From assembly GCA_017656185.1 (NCBI GenBank), contig JACDOK010000021.1:1-34745 (forward strand): a stretch of 34,745 bases of DNA. Reading direction: 5' to 3'. Numbering within the stretch: the stretch's first letter is position 1; each line of letters begins with the position of its first letter. The notes beneath the pieces were generated by a model. It saw nothing but the letters and a program-made list of their open reading frames with translations, was not told the origin of the DNA and did no database searches. Positions 14,279 through 34,745 of the stretch are shown one piece after another. This DNA comes from Peptococcaceae bacterium. Its GTDB lineage: Bacteria > Bacillota > Desulfotomaculia > Desulfotomaculales > JACDOK01. The translations under genes were made by a program, and so were the position numbers.

Positions 14279-14349
14279 GTACCAATTGAAGTTGTAAAAT
14301 TTGTATGATAGAGTTGTCTTATGGATGTCGGAGGAGGAGTTACAGGAAA

Positions 14350-15699
14350 ATGGGTAACATGTTCGGTACCGACGGCATTCGTGGGGTTGCCAACCGCGAT
14401 TTATCTCCTGAGCTGGCTTTTACCATAGGGCGTATAGGAGCATATGTCCTTACCCGGGAAACGGGTTTGAATTCTATCGTAATCGGCCGGGACACCCGGC
14501 TTTCGGGCGATATGCTCGAAGCTGCTCTCATCGCCGGCATTTGCTCGGTAGGCGTAAACGTACTGCGGGTGGGTGTGATCCCGACGCCGGGCGTGGCATT
14601 TCTTACCCGCGAACTCAACGCCGGAGCTGGTATTGTCATTTCCGCCTCTCATAATCCCTGTGAAGACAACGGTATCAAATTTTTCGGCGCCAACGGCTTC
14701 AAACTGCCGGACGCCGTGGAAGAGCGGATTGAAAATGCCGTTCTCAACGCAGAAGAATGTCCTTCGCCTACGGGAGCGGGCATCGGGCGGGTGTTTGATG
14801 CCACCGGTGCCGTGGGACGTTATGTTGAGCATGCTAAGACCACCGGGCCCCGCAGCCTGGCGGGTCTTAAGATCGTCGTGGATTGCGCCAACGGGGCGGC
14901 CTTTGAAGTGGCGCCGCGGCTGCTGGAAGAACTGGGTGCCGAAGTCATCCCCTTGAACTGCCGGCCTGATGGTACCAACATCAACCTTAACTGCGGTTCC
15001 ACCCATCCGGAGCCCCTGCAGGATAAAGTGGTTGCCGCCGGGGCCGATCTGGGGCTGGCCTATGATGGTGATGCCGACCGGGTTATTGCCGTCGACCACC
15101 GGGGCCGGCTGGTTGACGGCGACCATATTATGGTCATCTGCGGTCTCCACCTCAAGGAGCAGGGCTTGCTTCCCGGCAACAAAATAGTGGTCACCGTAAT
15201 GAGCAACCTGGGCCTGCACCTGGCCCTGCGCGAGGCGGGTATCGAGGTTTTGCAGACCAAGGTCGGCGACCGCTATGTACTGGAAGAAATGCTCCGCGCC
15301 GGTATCAAACTGGGCGGGGAACAGTCCGGGCATATCATCTTCCTGGATTACAATACCACCGGCGACGGCATCATAACTACGATGCAGCTGTTAAAGGTAA
15401 TGGAAGCCACCGGTTGTTCCCTCGCGGACCTGGCTTCCCGGATGCAGCGCCTGCCGCAGATGTTGAAAAATGTGCGGGTGCAGGATAAAAAGCGCATTAT
15501 GGTACACCCAGCCCTGGTTAAAGCTATTGAGGCCCACGAGGCCGTTATGAAGGGTGAGGGCCGTATTCTGGTGCGTCCTTCAGGTACCGAGCCGCTGGTA
15601 CGGGTTATGGCTGAGTGCAGGGATGAAGATATGCTTGACAGGATTGTTGATGACCTGGTAGAAATTATCAGAAGGGTTGATGAAGGGGGTGTGGCGTAA
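14350..15699 (+). CDS. glmM: Phosphoglucosamine mutase
   Basis: GlmM converts glucosamine-6-phosphate to glucosamine-1-phosphate for UDP-GlcNAc and the cell wall. From ATG 14350 it has 449 residues, the family norm, and starts [15 protein letters not shown]. The frame is open from 14305, but GGAGGAGGAG at 14330-14339 supports ATG 14350. The phosphorylated serine is Ser100 in ISASHNP. The metal loop AYDGDADRV, the sugar-binding GGEQSGHI and the phosphate-binding [12 protein letters not shown] are all present. It is followed by glmS, which makes its substrate, so the two steps are neighbours, separated by the glmS ribozyme leader. Confidence 0.96.
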
Positions 15700-15724
15700 A
15701 TAAAGATATACAACTGAATATCCA

Positions 15725-15952
15725 AGCGCCAGACCCAGCACTCAACGATCAGCAAGTGGCTTCGGAGAACAAGTCTACCGTACAGTAAGGACTCACTGTC
15801 ATTCGGAAACAAGTCCTGCATTGAGTGCTGGGTGACGAGGAGGAGGTTTATCGAAAGATTCGGCGGGTGCCTCCCGGCTGCTCACGGCCGTTAAAGACAC
15901 TACAAAACCGGCAGGTAACTGCCGGGACAAAAGGTGTCGGGTGAGGGAACGC
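15725..15952 (+). ncRNA. glmS ribozyme (glucosamine-6-phosphate-activated self-cleaving RNA)
   Basis: The conserved core is plain: AAGCGCC at 15724-15730 with cleavage expected between A15725 and G15726, then TGACGAGGAGGAGGTTTATC (15833-15852), then GAAAGATTCGGCGGGTGCC and TCCCGG. P3/P3a/P4 material (GGCCG, CCGGCAGG...CTGCCGGG, GGTGTCGGGTGAGG) follows to about 15952. When glucosamine-6-phosphate is abundant, the RNA cuts itself and glmS mRNA is degraded. P1 is a perfect 13-pair stem (15733-15745 with 15821-15833) capped by 75 bases. Its arms are the same sequence as a repeat family found elsewhere in this window, so the stem appears to have been replaced or enlarged by a repeat element. All core elements remain outside it. 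Confidence 0.93.
15734..15832. repeat. CCCAGCACTCA inverted-repeat element, copy 1 (in glmS ribozyme P1)
   Basis: CCCAGCACTCA (15734-15744) and TGAGTGCTGGG (15822-15832) are perfect inverted ends enclosing 77 bases, total 99 bp. The interior holds two near-identical direct repeats (TTCGGAGAACAAGTC near 15771, TTCGGAAACAAGTCC near 15802) and a smaller inverted pair AGGACT/AGTCCT. The span equals that of copy 4 at 29472. Confidence 0.75.
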
Positions 15953-16185: not shown

Positions 16186-18018
16186 ATGTGTGGTATTGTC
16201 GGGTACACCGGCAGCCAGCCGGCCGTACCGGTTCTAATAGATGGTTTGCGCCGTTTGGAATACCGTGGTTATGATTCGGCGGGTATTGCCGTGTTTGAAA
16301 ACGGTAGTTTACTGCTTGCCAAAAAAGCGGGAAACCTCTGTGTGCTGGAAGAAGCCATAAAGGGAAACGGTTTCAAAGGCAACACCGGCATTGGTCACAC
16401 GCGCTGGGCGACGCATGGTGCCCCCACTGATATCAATGCACACCCTCATACCGATTGCACGGGAAATATCGCCGTGGTACACAACGGTATCATTGAAAAC
16501 TACCTCGAACTGCGGGAATGGCTGAAAGCCGAAGGACACAAATTCCGTTCCGAGACCGATACCGAGGTGCTGCCGCACCTGATCGAACAGTTCTATAACG
16601 GCGATCTCTACCAGGCCATGCTGGAAAGCGTGCGGAAGTTGAAAGGGAGCTACGCCCTGCTGGCCATAAATATCAATGAACCGGGGCGTGTGGTGGTGGC
16701 GCGGCAGGACAGCCCGCTGGTCCTGGGCCTGGGTGAGGGTGAAAACTTTATTGCTTCCGATATTCCGGCCCTGCTGCCGTATACCCGCCGAACCTACCTG
16801 CTCGATGACGGCGAAGTGGCCGAAGTAACGGCAGACAGTGTTAAAATCGCTACGATAGCGGGCACGGAGGTATCCAAGGAGATCTTTTACGTGCACTGGG
16901 AAGCGGAACAGGCCGAAAAGGGCGGCTACGATCACTTCATGCTCAAGGAAATTCACGAGCAGCCCAAGGCTTTGCGGGACACCATACGCGGGCGCATCTC
17001 CGGCGACTGCCGGCGCGTGACTCTTGATAAGGAACTGCATATCAGCCCTGACCGGATTAAAAACCTGCGCAGGATCTTTATTACCGCCTGTGGTACCGCT
17101 TATCACGCTGGAGTAGTGGGCAAGTACGTCATTGAAAAACTGGCCCGCCTGCCGGTGGAGGTGGACATTGCTTCGGAGTTCCGTTACCGTGATCCTATGA
17201 TCAATCCCGGGGACCTGGTCATCGTAGTCAGCCAATCCGGAGAGACGGCCGATACCCGGGCCGCGCTGCGCGAGGCCAAAAGCCGGGGCGCCCACGTGCT
17301 GGCCATCACTAATGTGGTGGGCAGCTCGGTGGCTCGTGAAGCCGGCGACGTAATTTACACCTGGGCCGGGCCGGAAATCGCCGTGGCCTCTACCAAGGCC
17401 TATGTTACCCAGTTGATTAGCTTCTACCTGTTGGCTTTGTGGTTGGCTGAAAAACGGGGGACCGTTACTCCCAAAAAGCAGCAGGAACTGCTGCAAGCGA
17501 TGAAAACTTTACCCGGCGATGTGGAAGCAATCCTGCACGCATCGGACCGGGTGGAACAGTTGGCACGTACCTATGCCGGTTACGAAAATATTTTCTTTAT
17601 CGGGCGCGGCCTGGATTACGCCGTGGCGATGGAAGGCAGCCTGAAACTCAAGGAAATTTCGTATATTCATGCCGAGGCGTACGCCGCCGGGGAGTTGAAG
17701 CACGGTACCCTGGCCCTGGTTGTGCCCGGTGTTTGTGTAATAGCCCTGGCCACCCAGCCGGAGCTTTTTGAAAAAACGGTCAGTAATATCAAGGAAGTCA
17801 AGGCACGTGACGCCGAGGTCGTGGCCCTTACCTTCGAAGGAATGACCGCCATCAAAGAAGTAGCCGATCACGTCATCTATCTGCCGCCGGCTCACCCGAC
17901 CCTGGCCCCGGTACTGGCGGTAGTGCCGCTGCAGCTCTTTGCTTATTACGCCGCCGTCGCCCGCGGCTGCGAAGTCGACAAACCGCGGAATCTGGCCAAA
18001 TCGGTCACGGTGGAGTAG
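16186..18018 (+). CDS. glmS: Glutamine--fructose-6-phosphate aminotransferase (isomerizing)
   Basis: GlmS makes glucosamine-6-phosphate from fructose-6-phosphate and glutamine, the entry to hexosamine and cell-wall synthesis. The 610-residue length is standard. The N-terminal class II glutamine amidotransferase domain begins MCGIVGYTG, with Cys2 as the nucleophile, and has RLEYRGYDSAGIA and TRWATHGAPTDINAHPH. Two SIS sugar-isomerase domains follow (VVSQSGETADTRAAL near 350; GRGLDYAVAMEGSLKLKE near 475), ending with the typical DKPRNLAKSVTVE. AAAGGAGG lies about ten bases before the ATG. Expression should be tied to the upstream ribozyme. Confidence 0.97.
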   Translation: MCGIVGYTGSQPAVPVLIDGLRRLEYRGYDSAGIAVFENGSLLLAKKAGNLCVLEEAIKGNGFKGNTGIGHTRWATHGAPTDINAHPHTDCTGNIAVVHNGIIENYLELREWLKAEGHKFRSETDTEVLPHLIEQFYNGDLYQAMLESVRKLKGSYALLAININEPGRVVVARQDSPLVLGLGEGENFIASDIPALLPYTRRTYLLDDGEVAEVTADSVKIATIAGTEVSKEIFYVHWEAEQAEKGGYDHFMLKEIHEQPKALRDTIRGRISGDCRRVTLDKELHISPDRIKNLRRIFITACGTAYHAGVVGKYVIEKLARLPVEVDIASEFRYRDPMINPGDLVIVVSQSGETADTRAALREAKSRGAHVLAITNVVGSSVAREAGDVIYTWAGPEIAVASTKAYVTQLISFYLLALWLAEKRGTVTPKKQQELLQAMKTLPGDVEAILHASDRVEQLARTYAGYENIFFIGRGLDYAVAMEGSLKLKEISYIHAEAYAAGELKHGTLALVVPGVCVIALATQPELFEKTVSNIKEVKARDAEVVALTFEGMTAIKEVADHVIYLPPAHPTLAPVLAVVPLQLFAYYAAVARGCEVDKPRNLAKSVTVE

Positions 18019-19739: not shown

Positions 19740-20640
19740 TTAAACGGTAGTAAAAAGGATCCTGAAAAAATTCTGTAGGATTTGAGGGTCAAGTCCAGAT
19801 TTGGTGTATAAAATCCCCTCTGGTAGGGTAGCTGTTTCCCATGCAACTTTGTCTTGCTGGTTTACATTTGTTGGCTCGTTCTTTTCAGTTCTTTTCCACT
19901 CCCAGTATTCATCCATGTTCAGATAGACACGGGGTACTCCATGCCTCATGCTGTGCCATTAACAGGGCCCCGATAAGACGTTCTGCCGATACCTGATTAG
20001 GGAAGATACGAATGACTCGTTCCCTTCGTCGGATTTCCTCGTTGAGACGCTCCACGCCGTTAGTGGTCCGAAGTCGCTTTCGATACCGCTCGGGCAGGGC
20101 CATCACTGCTATGGCGTCCTCAAAACCAACTTCCAGCCGTTCCACCGCCTTGGGAGCCCGATCGGCGTAGTCCCGGCTTGCCTTGTCCATAAGCCGGGGC
20201 GCCGTTGCCAGGTCCGGTGCGTCGAAGATCAACCGCAGCCGCCCGTGCAGTTCGCGTTGCAGAAACTTGGGGCAGGCATCCAGGACATTGCGGACAAAGT
20301 GGGTTTGCCCAGCACTCAGAGAACCTGAGTGCTGGGTACCATGTTGCCCCCTGAAAGTGGGTCTCTACGGCTTTCACAAGGCCTTTATGGTCATCAGAGG
20401 CGACCAGGTCCACCCCGTGCAGCCCTCGCTCCTTGAGACGAGCGAAGAATTCAGATCAGCTAGCCTCCGTTTCACTGTCGCCGATTATCAGCCCCAGGAT
20501 ATTTCACGGCAGCCTTCCCGGTTGCTCCCGGTAGCGACCGTACTCGGCCATCCTTTCGCACGCGGATCACCAGGGCATCTACCAGCAGGAACGGGTATTT
20601 CTGATGAGCCAAGCTCCTTTCATTCCATTCGTGCAGCTAA
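19740..20640 (-). pseudogene. IS256-family (mutator) transposase, broken
   Basis: Read from high to low coordinates, the remnant matches the middle and C-terminal parts of an IS256-type transposase: WNERSLAHQKYPFLLVDAL near 20627, then LKERGLHGVDLVASDDHKG and VKAVETHFQGATW near 20350, then THFVRNVLDACP, LPERYRKRLRTTNGVERLNE and RERVIRIFPNQVSAERLIGA, and YLNMDEYWEW in a shifted frame near 19910. The N-terminal third is missing. There are stops near 20460, more than one frameshift, and a 29-base palindrome in place of the expected Trp-Gln-Arg-Cys-Gln segment. It cannot be functional. Its truncated 5' end borders a GGGGTCAGG-type repeat also found elsewhere in the island. Confidence 0.9.
20307..20335. 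repeat. CCCAGCACTCA inverted-repeat element, copy 2 (in IS256 transposase)
   Basis: CCCAGCACTCAG (20307-20318) and CTGAGTGCTGGG (20324-20335) form a perfect 12-pair stem with a five-base loop. It sits inside the conserved core of the IS256 transposase gene, between codons for GATW and QTHFVRN, so it is an insertion or local replacement. Confidence 0.85.
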
Positions 20641-22132: not shown

Positions 22133-22708
22133 TATAAAACTTAGACACAATTTGGTCACGTAACTAGCCGATACAGAGTGAGTCAACAGGTTCCGGGTAT
22201 TTTTCCTTCCCAGAAATGGTGTTGTGTGGAACCTTATTGAAAGACAGAGAGTCCCTGGCCGTTTGCCACTTCTAACACACCTGATTTGTTAGGATCAGTC
22301 CCACTCCCTCTCCGGGTAACCAAACAGGTGCTACACGATCGATGGAATACAGCGCTGCCTCCTTATAGGTGTCGGTTTTACCGGCTTTCTAAGAGCCGGT
22401 GCGAAGGAGGGCCTCTCCAGTTCTGAAGTGTGCCTTCCTAACATTCCGTTCCCCTTACGCCGGGAGGTTCTTCGGTGCTGCGATCCAAGTTCTTCACACC
22501 TTCCATGGCCTTCGCCTGGCCTACCAAGGCTCGGCTCCTCCTGGTCCCTGGTTTCCCAGGGGGGGTCTTACGACGCGGCAGGATTCACTTTATGTTACGG
22601 ACTGCTAGGTCGCTCGCACCCTAAAAGGTACTTTCTCACGGCGCTTCGGTGCTGGGATCTCTCCTCACACCGGCTGTTAGCTACAGGGCGGCTTGGCCCT
22701 TACCCTGG
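22133..22708. other. Gene-free, GC-rich structured block
   Basis: I see no convincing gene. The block is rich in short inverted pairs and has internal direct similarity: TTCGGTGCTGCGATCC near 22472 and TTCGGTGCTGGGATCT near 22645, each followed by a CTTCACACC/CTCACACC segment. Translations in two forward frames resemble spurious hypothetical proteins that I recall as often annotated over repeated non-coding DNA in clostridia. It abuts copy 3 of the CCCAGCACTCA element. It may be a decayed non-coding mobile element read on the minus strand. Confidence 0.4.
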
Positions 22709-22756
22709 CCCAGCGCTTAGGAAGCTCTTAAATTACAAGCCCTACTGAGTGCTGGG
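22709..22756. repeat. CCCAGCACTCA inverted-repeat element, copy 3
   Basis: CCCAGCGCTTAG (22709-22720) and CTGAGTGCTGGG (22745-22756) form a 12-pair stem with two G-U-type mismatches and a 24-base loop. The right end continues into the second module described in the next entry. Confidence 0.65.
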
Positions 22757-29428: not shown

Positions 29429-29470
29429 GGGGATAAAGGGGGTCAGGCTTGCGCGTGTCCAGCTAAGCTG
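29429..29470 (+). repeat. GGGGTCAGG module attached to copy 4
   Basis: These 42 bases are identical to 34648-34689: GGGGATAAAGGGGGTCAGG, then CTTGCGCGTGTCC, then AGCTAAGCTG. Here the module joins copy 4 with a single A; at 34690 an extra eleven bases intervene. Confidence 0.85.
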
Positions 29471-29471
29471 A

Positions 29472-29570
29472 CCCAGCACTCAGTGAACAATAAAGGGGTT
29501 ATAAGTCCGTTTTGTTTACCGGCGGCTGCTTTAACACTCCTACCAATCGCTATCAGCTCTGAGTGCCGGG
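29472..29570. repeat. CCCAGCACTCA inverted-repeat element, copy 4
   Basis: CCCAGCACTCA (29472-29482) and TGAGTGCCGGG (29560-29570) are inverted ends with one mismatch around 77 bases, total 99 bp, exactly the span of copy 1. The first 45 bases are identical to copy 5 at the right edge of the window. The interior shows little similarity to copy 1 by eye. Confidence 0.8.
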
Positions 29571-34647: not shown

Positions 34648-34700
34648 GGGGATAAAGGGGGTCAGGCTTGCGCGTGTCCAGCTAAGCTGGAGTGTACCAG
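34648..34700 (+). repeat. GGGGTCAGG module attached to copy 5
   Basis: The first 42 bases are identical to 29429-29470. TCCAGCTAAGCTGGA (34677-34691) is a perfect palindrome here. GAGTGTACCAG then joins the module to copy 5, as in copy 3 (with one base change). Confidence 0.85.
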
Positions 34701-34745
34701 CCCAGCACTCAGTGAACAATAAAGGGGTTATAAGTCCGTTTTGTT
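34701..34745. repeat. CCCAGCACTCA inverted-repeat element, copy 5 (cut by window end)
   Basis: The visible 45 bases are identical to the start of copy 4 (29472-29516). If the copy is full, its TGAGTGC right end should appear about 54 bases beyond the window. Confidence 0.8.

Follow-up and report, generated by a model that had tools for sequence, protein, structure and literature searches.

The glmS ribozyme is a self-cleaving RNA switch that governs the synthesis of a cell-wall sugar. Its P1 stem in a Peptococcaceae bacterium is a member of a family of short palindromic repeats that is dispersed over the genome of this organism. Repeats of the genome appear to supply variable arms of regulatory RNAs. 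The ribozyme was found in a stretch of 34,745 nt (contig JACDOK010000021.1, positions 1 to 34,745; hereafter the window), in which it lies in the leader between glmM and glmS.

The glmS leader, its P1 stem and the repeat family

The features of the locus, all of them on the + strand, are as follows:

14305–15699, glmM (phosphoglucosamine mutase), the gene upstream of the ribozyme; PGM_PMM domains I–IV
15714–15949, glmS ribozyme-riboswitch (RF00234); cmscan 108.8 bits, E 7.7e-25, model positions 1–167 of 167
15734–15832, palindromic repeat element of 99 nt, comprising all of P1 except the closing pair A15733-T15833; exact inverted ends, modal length of the family
15734–15744, left arm of the element and 5' strand of P1, CCCAGCACTCA; sequence and motif search
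15745–15821, interior of the element and loop of P1, an imperfect hairpin when folded
15822–15832, right arm of the element and 3' strand of P1, TGAGTGCTGGG; sequence and motif search
15834–15949, core and 3' peripheral helices of the ribozyme, conserved and intact (GACGAGG...); RF00234 alignment
16186–18018, glmS (glutamine-fructose-6-phosphate aminotransferase), the regulated gene; GATase_6 and SIS domains

Outside P1, the ribozyme agrees with the RF00234 consensus in the Rfam alignment. The GCGCC motif in the sequence places the predicted cleavage site between A15725 and G15726, and the whole leader folds with a z of -4.0. Judging from the intact core, the ribozyme has presumably retained its activity. 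In P1, each of the 11 pairs contributed by the element has a probability of 0.96–1.0 when the element is folded alone, and an extra A-T pair (15745/15821) extends the arms. A preliminary description of this DNA had already reported a conserved ribozyme core, P1 arms identical to the inverted ends of a repeat family and a P1 loop of 75 bases; all of this was borne out by the full-length match to RF00234, by the exact 11-mers found at the size of the family and by a loop that indeed has 75 nt once the further A-T pair is formed. Its assignment of the family to an island was too narrow, since the copies are dispersed genome-wide, over many contigs.

With up to one mismatch, the P1 11-mer occurs 83 + 89 times in the 2.3-Mb genome, compared to 7 + 3 occurrences of a reversed control pattern, and nine times in the window, where 0.5 occurrences are expected from shuffled sequences. 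Complete elements of 96–103 nt with exact 10-bp ends number 25 in the genome, among them the glmS P1 with its 99 nt, as opposed to 0 for the control. Among 34 distinct elements sampled in the genome, 24 had a length of 97–103 nt and ten of 29–47 nt, with a mode of 99 nt. The family is non-coding, occurs across the order, has inverted ends of 11–12 bp (CCC(A/G)GCACTCA) and occurs in three main sizes, as hairpins of 27–29 nt, as forms of 40–51 nt and as the common form of 93–103 nt. A structured loop as conserved feature of the family was ruled out: the interiors of the dispersed copies have a mean folding z near 0 and are no more structured than expected by chance, so that only the arms are conserved.

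The best match to the interior of the P1 copy elsewhere in its genome has 31.9 bits and lies mostly in the arm (BLAST against the own genome). At its 12th base, the copy belongs to the CAA/TTG subtype, which is common in family f17 and in the P1 stems of other families but rare in the own genome, whose elements are dominated by the CAG/CTG subtype. Because of the interior without a close match and of the subtype, the P1 element is not a recent duplicate but probably an old copy.

One short copy in the window is located within a former gene:

20308–20336, unstranded, 29-nt short form of the repeat inside a remnant of a Mutator/IS256-type transposase

This copy splits and frame-shifts the remnant, whose C-terminal part (PF00872) is encoded at 19909–20232 on the minus strand; an uninterrupted copy of this transposase was not found in the own genome. 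At L090, L098, L105, L106 and L121 of the same genome, elements are flanked by a different short unit, CGTATCACAG or CGAATGACAG, which is likewise dispersed. It alternates with small hairpins and seems to be a separate repeat system.

P1 stems of related ribozymes

The comparison set comprised 113 genomes of the order, and a class-wide search returned the same 113. Among the genomes searched, the family of the window (f1) is represented by its own genome (G000) alone, and only sister families displayed the unoccupied state of the exact locus. The CCCRGCACTCA end has high copy numbers in most genomes of family f17, in genus g8, in a related genus of f8, in the own genome and in a single genome of f2, whereas control counts were near zero. 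Ribozymes of the glmS type were found in 98 of the 113 genomes, and the P1 stems of most of these were read out. Many relatives have short private hairpins as P1, which commonly start with AACC(C) and end with (G)GGTT. Arms of the repeat build P1 in six families (f1, f2, f5, f15, f16 and f18), represented by G000 (f1), G076 (f2), G004 (f5), G014 (f15), G015, G066 and G067 (f16) and G017 (f18). The ribozyme of G004 was only partially matched in the genome-wide search and its arms were detected by the P1 pattern search; a direct scan gave a full-length match of 91.1 bits. Further, P1 of G028 (f18) holds a short remnant of the repeat, and P1 of G062 (f17), which is different and larger, has the element nested in its loop. 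Several relatives with arms in P1, including G062 and G076, are rich in the repeat; G014, G015, G017 and G067 have few copies, only somewhat above the control.

Unoccupied counterparts are found close by. In genus g43, P1 of G066 carries the element, whereas G063, G064 and G065 have CCCGGCGTGTTGCCGGG or a similar sequence. Short P1 stems were also found in the sisters G058, G049 and G005, near G000, G004 and G014, and in the other f2 genomes as compared to G076. In a comparison of eight P1/element copies whose arms have diverged, 92 of 96 cells held standard pairs. The repeat is found in P1 recurrently, and the pairing of P1 is maintained. The sister genomes have the short P1 without the element for which the preliminary description had proposed to search the glmS leaders of relatives. 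The same arms and loop in relatives free of the repeat, which it had named as the observation that would contradict its reading, were not encountered: the arm-bearing relatives differ in their loops. Of its suggestion that P1 is a plausible safe landing site, the residence stands, as it recurs across families, while the landing, i.e. mobility, is read from presence and absence of the element.

The f17 glmS leaders at L122–L126 have enlarged P1 stems of 169–255 nt, most of which carry repeats of a second dispersed class, present in dozens of copies in the respective genomes, and some enlarged P1 stems of f17 contain (GAAGTCA)-like heptamer palindromes. In L123, a further CCCGGCACTCA end is located between the ribozyme of G061 and glmS, ~120 nt downstream of the ribozyme (G061:C206:5726-5736). 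At L249 (G022), one element has seven tandem copies of the arm TGAGTGCTGGG at its right end, and at the g8 loci L237–L252 a larger palindromic repeat, whose outer arms resemble GTAAATATTCAGT...ACTGAATATTTAC, often encloses the element.

Other RNA hosts and the structure of occupied sites

Rfam scans covered about 100 distinct element loci. The glmS leaders were excluded from the count because glmS was the starting point; six of the loci were found within other leader RNAs, two of them in cobalamin riboswitches, one in a SAM-I riboswitch, one in a c-di-AMP riboswitch and two in T-box leaders. In the own genome, a 40-nt form lies inside a cobalamin riboswitch (L119 1022-1061; 127.7 bits), and in G060 a 97-nt form occupies the same stem of a cobalamin riboswitch (96 bits). 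G060 also has a 98-nt form within a stem of a c-di-AMP riboswitch (97 bits), and in G055 P3 of a SAM-I riboswitch has a 28-nt form as its tip. The T-box leaders belong to G060 (88 bits, E 6e-18) and G061 (76 bits, E 7e-15); both scores are under the curated cut-off of 93, with the T-box sequence itself present. Despite the many copies in g8, none of the 14 g8 loci scanned had an element inside a leader RNA. If leaders are roughly allowed to make up at most 1% of the non-coding DNA, with an assumed coding fraction, about one hit is predicted, and the Poisson chance of at least six hits is about 6e-4, or about 0.02 at 2%, both as order-of-magnitude estimates. The flanking DNA, ~200 kb in total, yielded no more than two leaders without an element (a sodium and a c-di-GMP riboswitch). 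The preliminary description had considered a tolerance guided by RNA structure for the glmS ribozyme; since the same repeat is found in cobalamin, SAM-I, c-di-AMP and T-box leaders, this is a general pattern.

Group II introns host the repeat in domain I in the window and in G007, G022 and G062. The window contains the following copies:

22590–22709, - strand, group II intron D1–D4 match (RF02003, 79.7 bits) with a 48-nt form of the repeat in domain I at 22709–22756
29472–29570, + strand, 99-nt repeat that follows a 5' fragment of a group II intron
34701–34745, + strand, repeat behind the same intron 5' fragment as at 29472, cut by the end of the window

In the intron copies (22590–22756, 29439–29570, 34648–34745; L264), either the 48-nt or the 99-nt form is present at one place of domain I, as if the forms were swapped between identical ends.

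Two sites could be compared in their occupied and unoccupied states. The group II intron of G051 has the tip CCAG-CTCTTC-CTGG, at which G007 and G022 have a 28-nt palindrome, CCCAGCACTCAG-ACGT-CTGAGTGCTGGG. In a multicopy sequence, one G051 copy contains a 51-nt element and the other copies have a small native GCC-loop-GGC hairpin. In both pairs, the native hairpin tip is replaced. Other candidates for unoccupied sites were rejected: the comparison of the G085 element with G042 was ambiguous, with a 5-nt difference remaining, and that of L250 with G007 looked like an internal deletion within the element.

In 99 copies, no consistent excess of flanking direct repeats of 2–12 nt was detected, and the immediate flanks did not lengthen the pairing of the elements. 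Therefore, the element is sharply bounded, unlike a transposon that forms target duplications. A search for an autonomous partner, i.e. a correctly oriented pair of arms 0.5–3 kb apart, gave none among the 100 of 172 arms of G000 that were listed, in a genome of 82 contigs. From presence and absence of copies, we infer that the repeat is or was mobile, although neither a target duplication nor an autonomous partner among the listed arms speaks for transposition. More tentatively, it might have an insertion specificity for hairpin tips, in single-stranded DNA or via RNA, by which riboswitches, ribozymes and group II introns would be preferred safe harbours and the repeat a recurring generator of their variable helices. 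This possibility, which we regard as rather doubtful at present, is indicated by the tips that are replaced and not merely split in both pairs with an unoccupied copy, by the same cobalamin stem being occupied in two families and by the host stems of most RNA classes, which are natively CC...GG, like the element.

Origin of the element in P1 and comparison with known systems

Very probably, P1 houses a dispersed palindrome of the REP/MITE type that survives in peripheral helices as its arms rebuild the helix it has displaced. In this mechanism, a structured RNA would receive a copy of the repeat in one of its peripheral helices of variable length, and the copy would replace the tip of that helix; the two ends of the element would then pair and restore a GC-rich helix that keeps the register of the conserved core. 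Because the self-complementary ends rebuild the helix, the RNA would still fold and stay functional, and the inserted copy would be kept. P1 of the glmS ribozyme was shown by compensatory mutation to be purely structural, and deletions in P1 are tolerated (PMC7125110). Since P1 is also outside the active site, GlcN6P-activated cleavage should go on.

The agreement between P1 and the repeat has next to no chance of being a coincidence of GC-rich sequences. P1 stems of the order usually read AACCC...GGGTT, so that three of the 11 pairs are expected regardless, but the 11-mers of both sides match exactly, the length is the modal 99 nt, the genome has 172 near copies, and the arms recur in P1 of six other families. 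An alternative with more weight, albeit still unlikely, is that the P1 of the order had one ancestral element which was repeatedly lost or shortened, in which case P1 would be no recurrent landing site. The right-hand interior AGTCCTGCA beside the arm, common to G000 and G004, and the CCCGG/CCGGG kept in short P1 stems of f16 would fit such a history; these f16 stems (CCCGGC...GCCGGG) could have arisen by erosion of the element instead of showing the state before insertion, and since short stems could be eroded elements, the direction of single P1 changes is unproven. On the GlmS tree (64 rows), however, the presence of the element in P1 needs seven changes, at least six of which are forced by well-supported branches; the changes in this minimum are mostly gains, and losses alone need more events. 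Moreover, both the stems and the loops of P1 are unrelated in most families, and the element of G062 (f17) occupies the loop of a P1 of a different type.

An independently selected, non-mobile RNA hairpin, which for example binds a protein or protects from nucleases, would account for the recurrence of one 11–12 bp helix, each time with an unrelated loop, in leaders of the glmS, cobalamin, SAM-I, c-di-AMP and T-box types, as well as for conservation that is limited to the arms, with interiors no more structured than expected by chance (mean z near 0). We consider such a function of the CCCRGCACTCA helix quite improbable as an explanation, because most copies, dozens per genome, are found outside known leader RNAs, one copy splits a transposase gene, the length of the element is fixed near 98 nt and drifting P1 arms have one-sided changes. 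A dispersed palindrome resident in peripheral helices enables direct tests of the way in which selfish palindromes are tolerated, and perhaps put to use, by catalytic RNAs, and of hairpins as insertion targets versus hairpins as sites where copies survive.

The family shares terminal inverted repeats of 11–12 bp, a length of ~98 nt, the lack of coding capacity and dozens of copies per genome with MITEs, but not a target-site duplication (99 copies); with REP/BIME elements, it shares a palindromic unit (27–29 nt and longer forms), dispersal and the absence of target duplication. Like MITEs, REP/BIME elements and Rickettsia palindromic elements (PMC10969869), it is short, dispersed and multicopy with inverted ends and stem-loop transcripts; unlike these, it is resident in riboswitch stems, and neither a target duplication nor, among the listed arms, a partner transposase was found. 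On riboswitches, the review on MITE/REP elements remarks only that riboswitches or terminators might be formed by MITEs and that potential T-box motifs are present in BOX elements (PMC10969869). A single palindromic repeat family that provides variable stems to the glmS ribozyme and to several classes of riboswitches was not found reported in the open-access literature.

Repeats within structural RNA genes are already known. STRR repeats in the RNase P RNA of heterocyst-forming cyanobacteria were reportedly described by Vioque in 1997 (cited in PMC4046671). STRR and the repeat described here are both dispersed genomic repeats in a catalytic RNA gene, but STRR are tandem short repeats in one RNA, whereas here self-pairing palindromes are present in a metabolite-sensing ribozyme and in several riboswitch classes. 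Compared to known glmS ribozymes (RF00234), the full-length match, the intact core and the place upstream of glmS are the same, but P1 is a 99-nt dispersed repeat and not a short private hairpin. Peripheral helices of riboswitches and ribozymes vary greatly in length, and their origin has rarely been traced. Many riboswitches tolerate long non-conserved stem-loop insertions at specific sites (Barrick and Breaker 2007, PMC2258182); here, by contrast, a source of such insertions is identified, with a single dispersed family supplying the variable helices of group II introns and of five classes of regulatory RNA.
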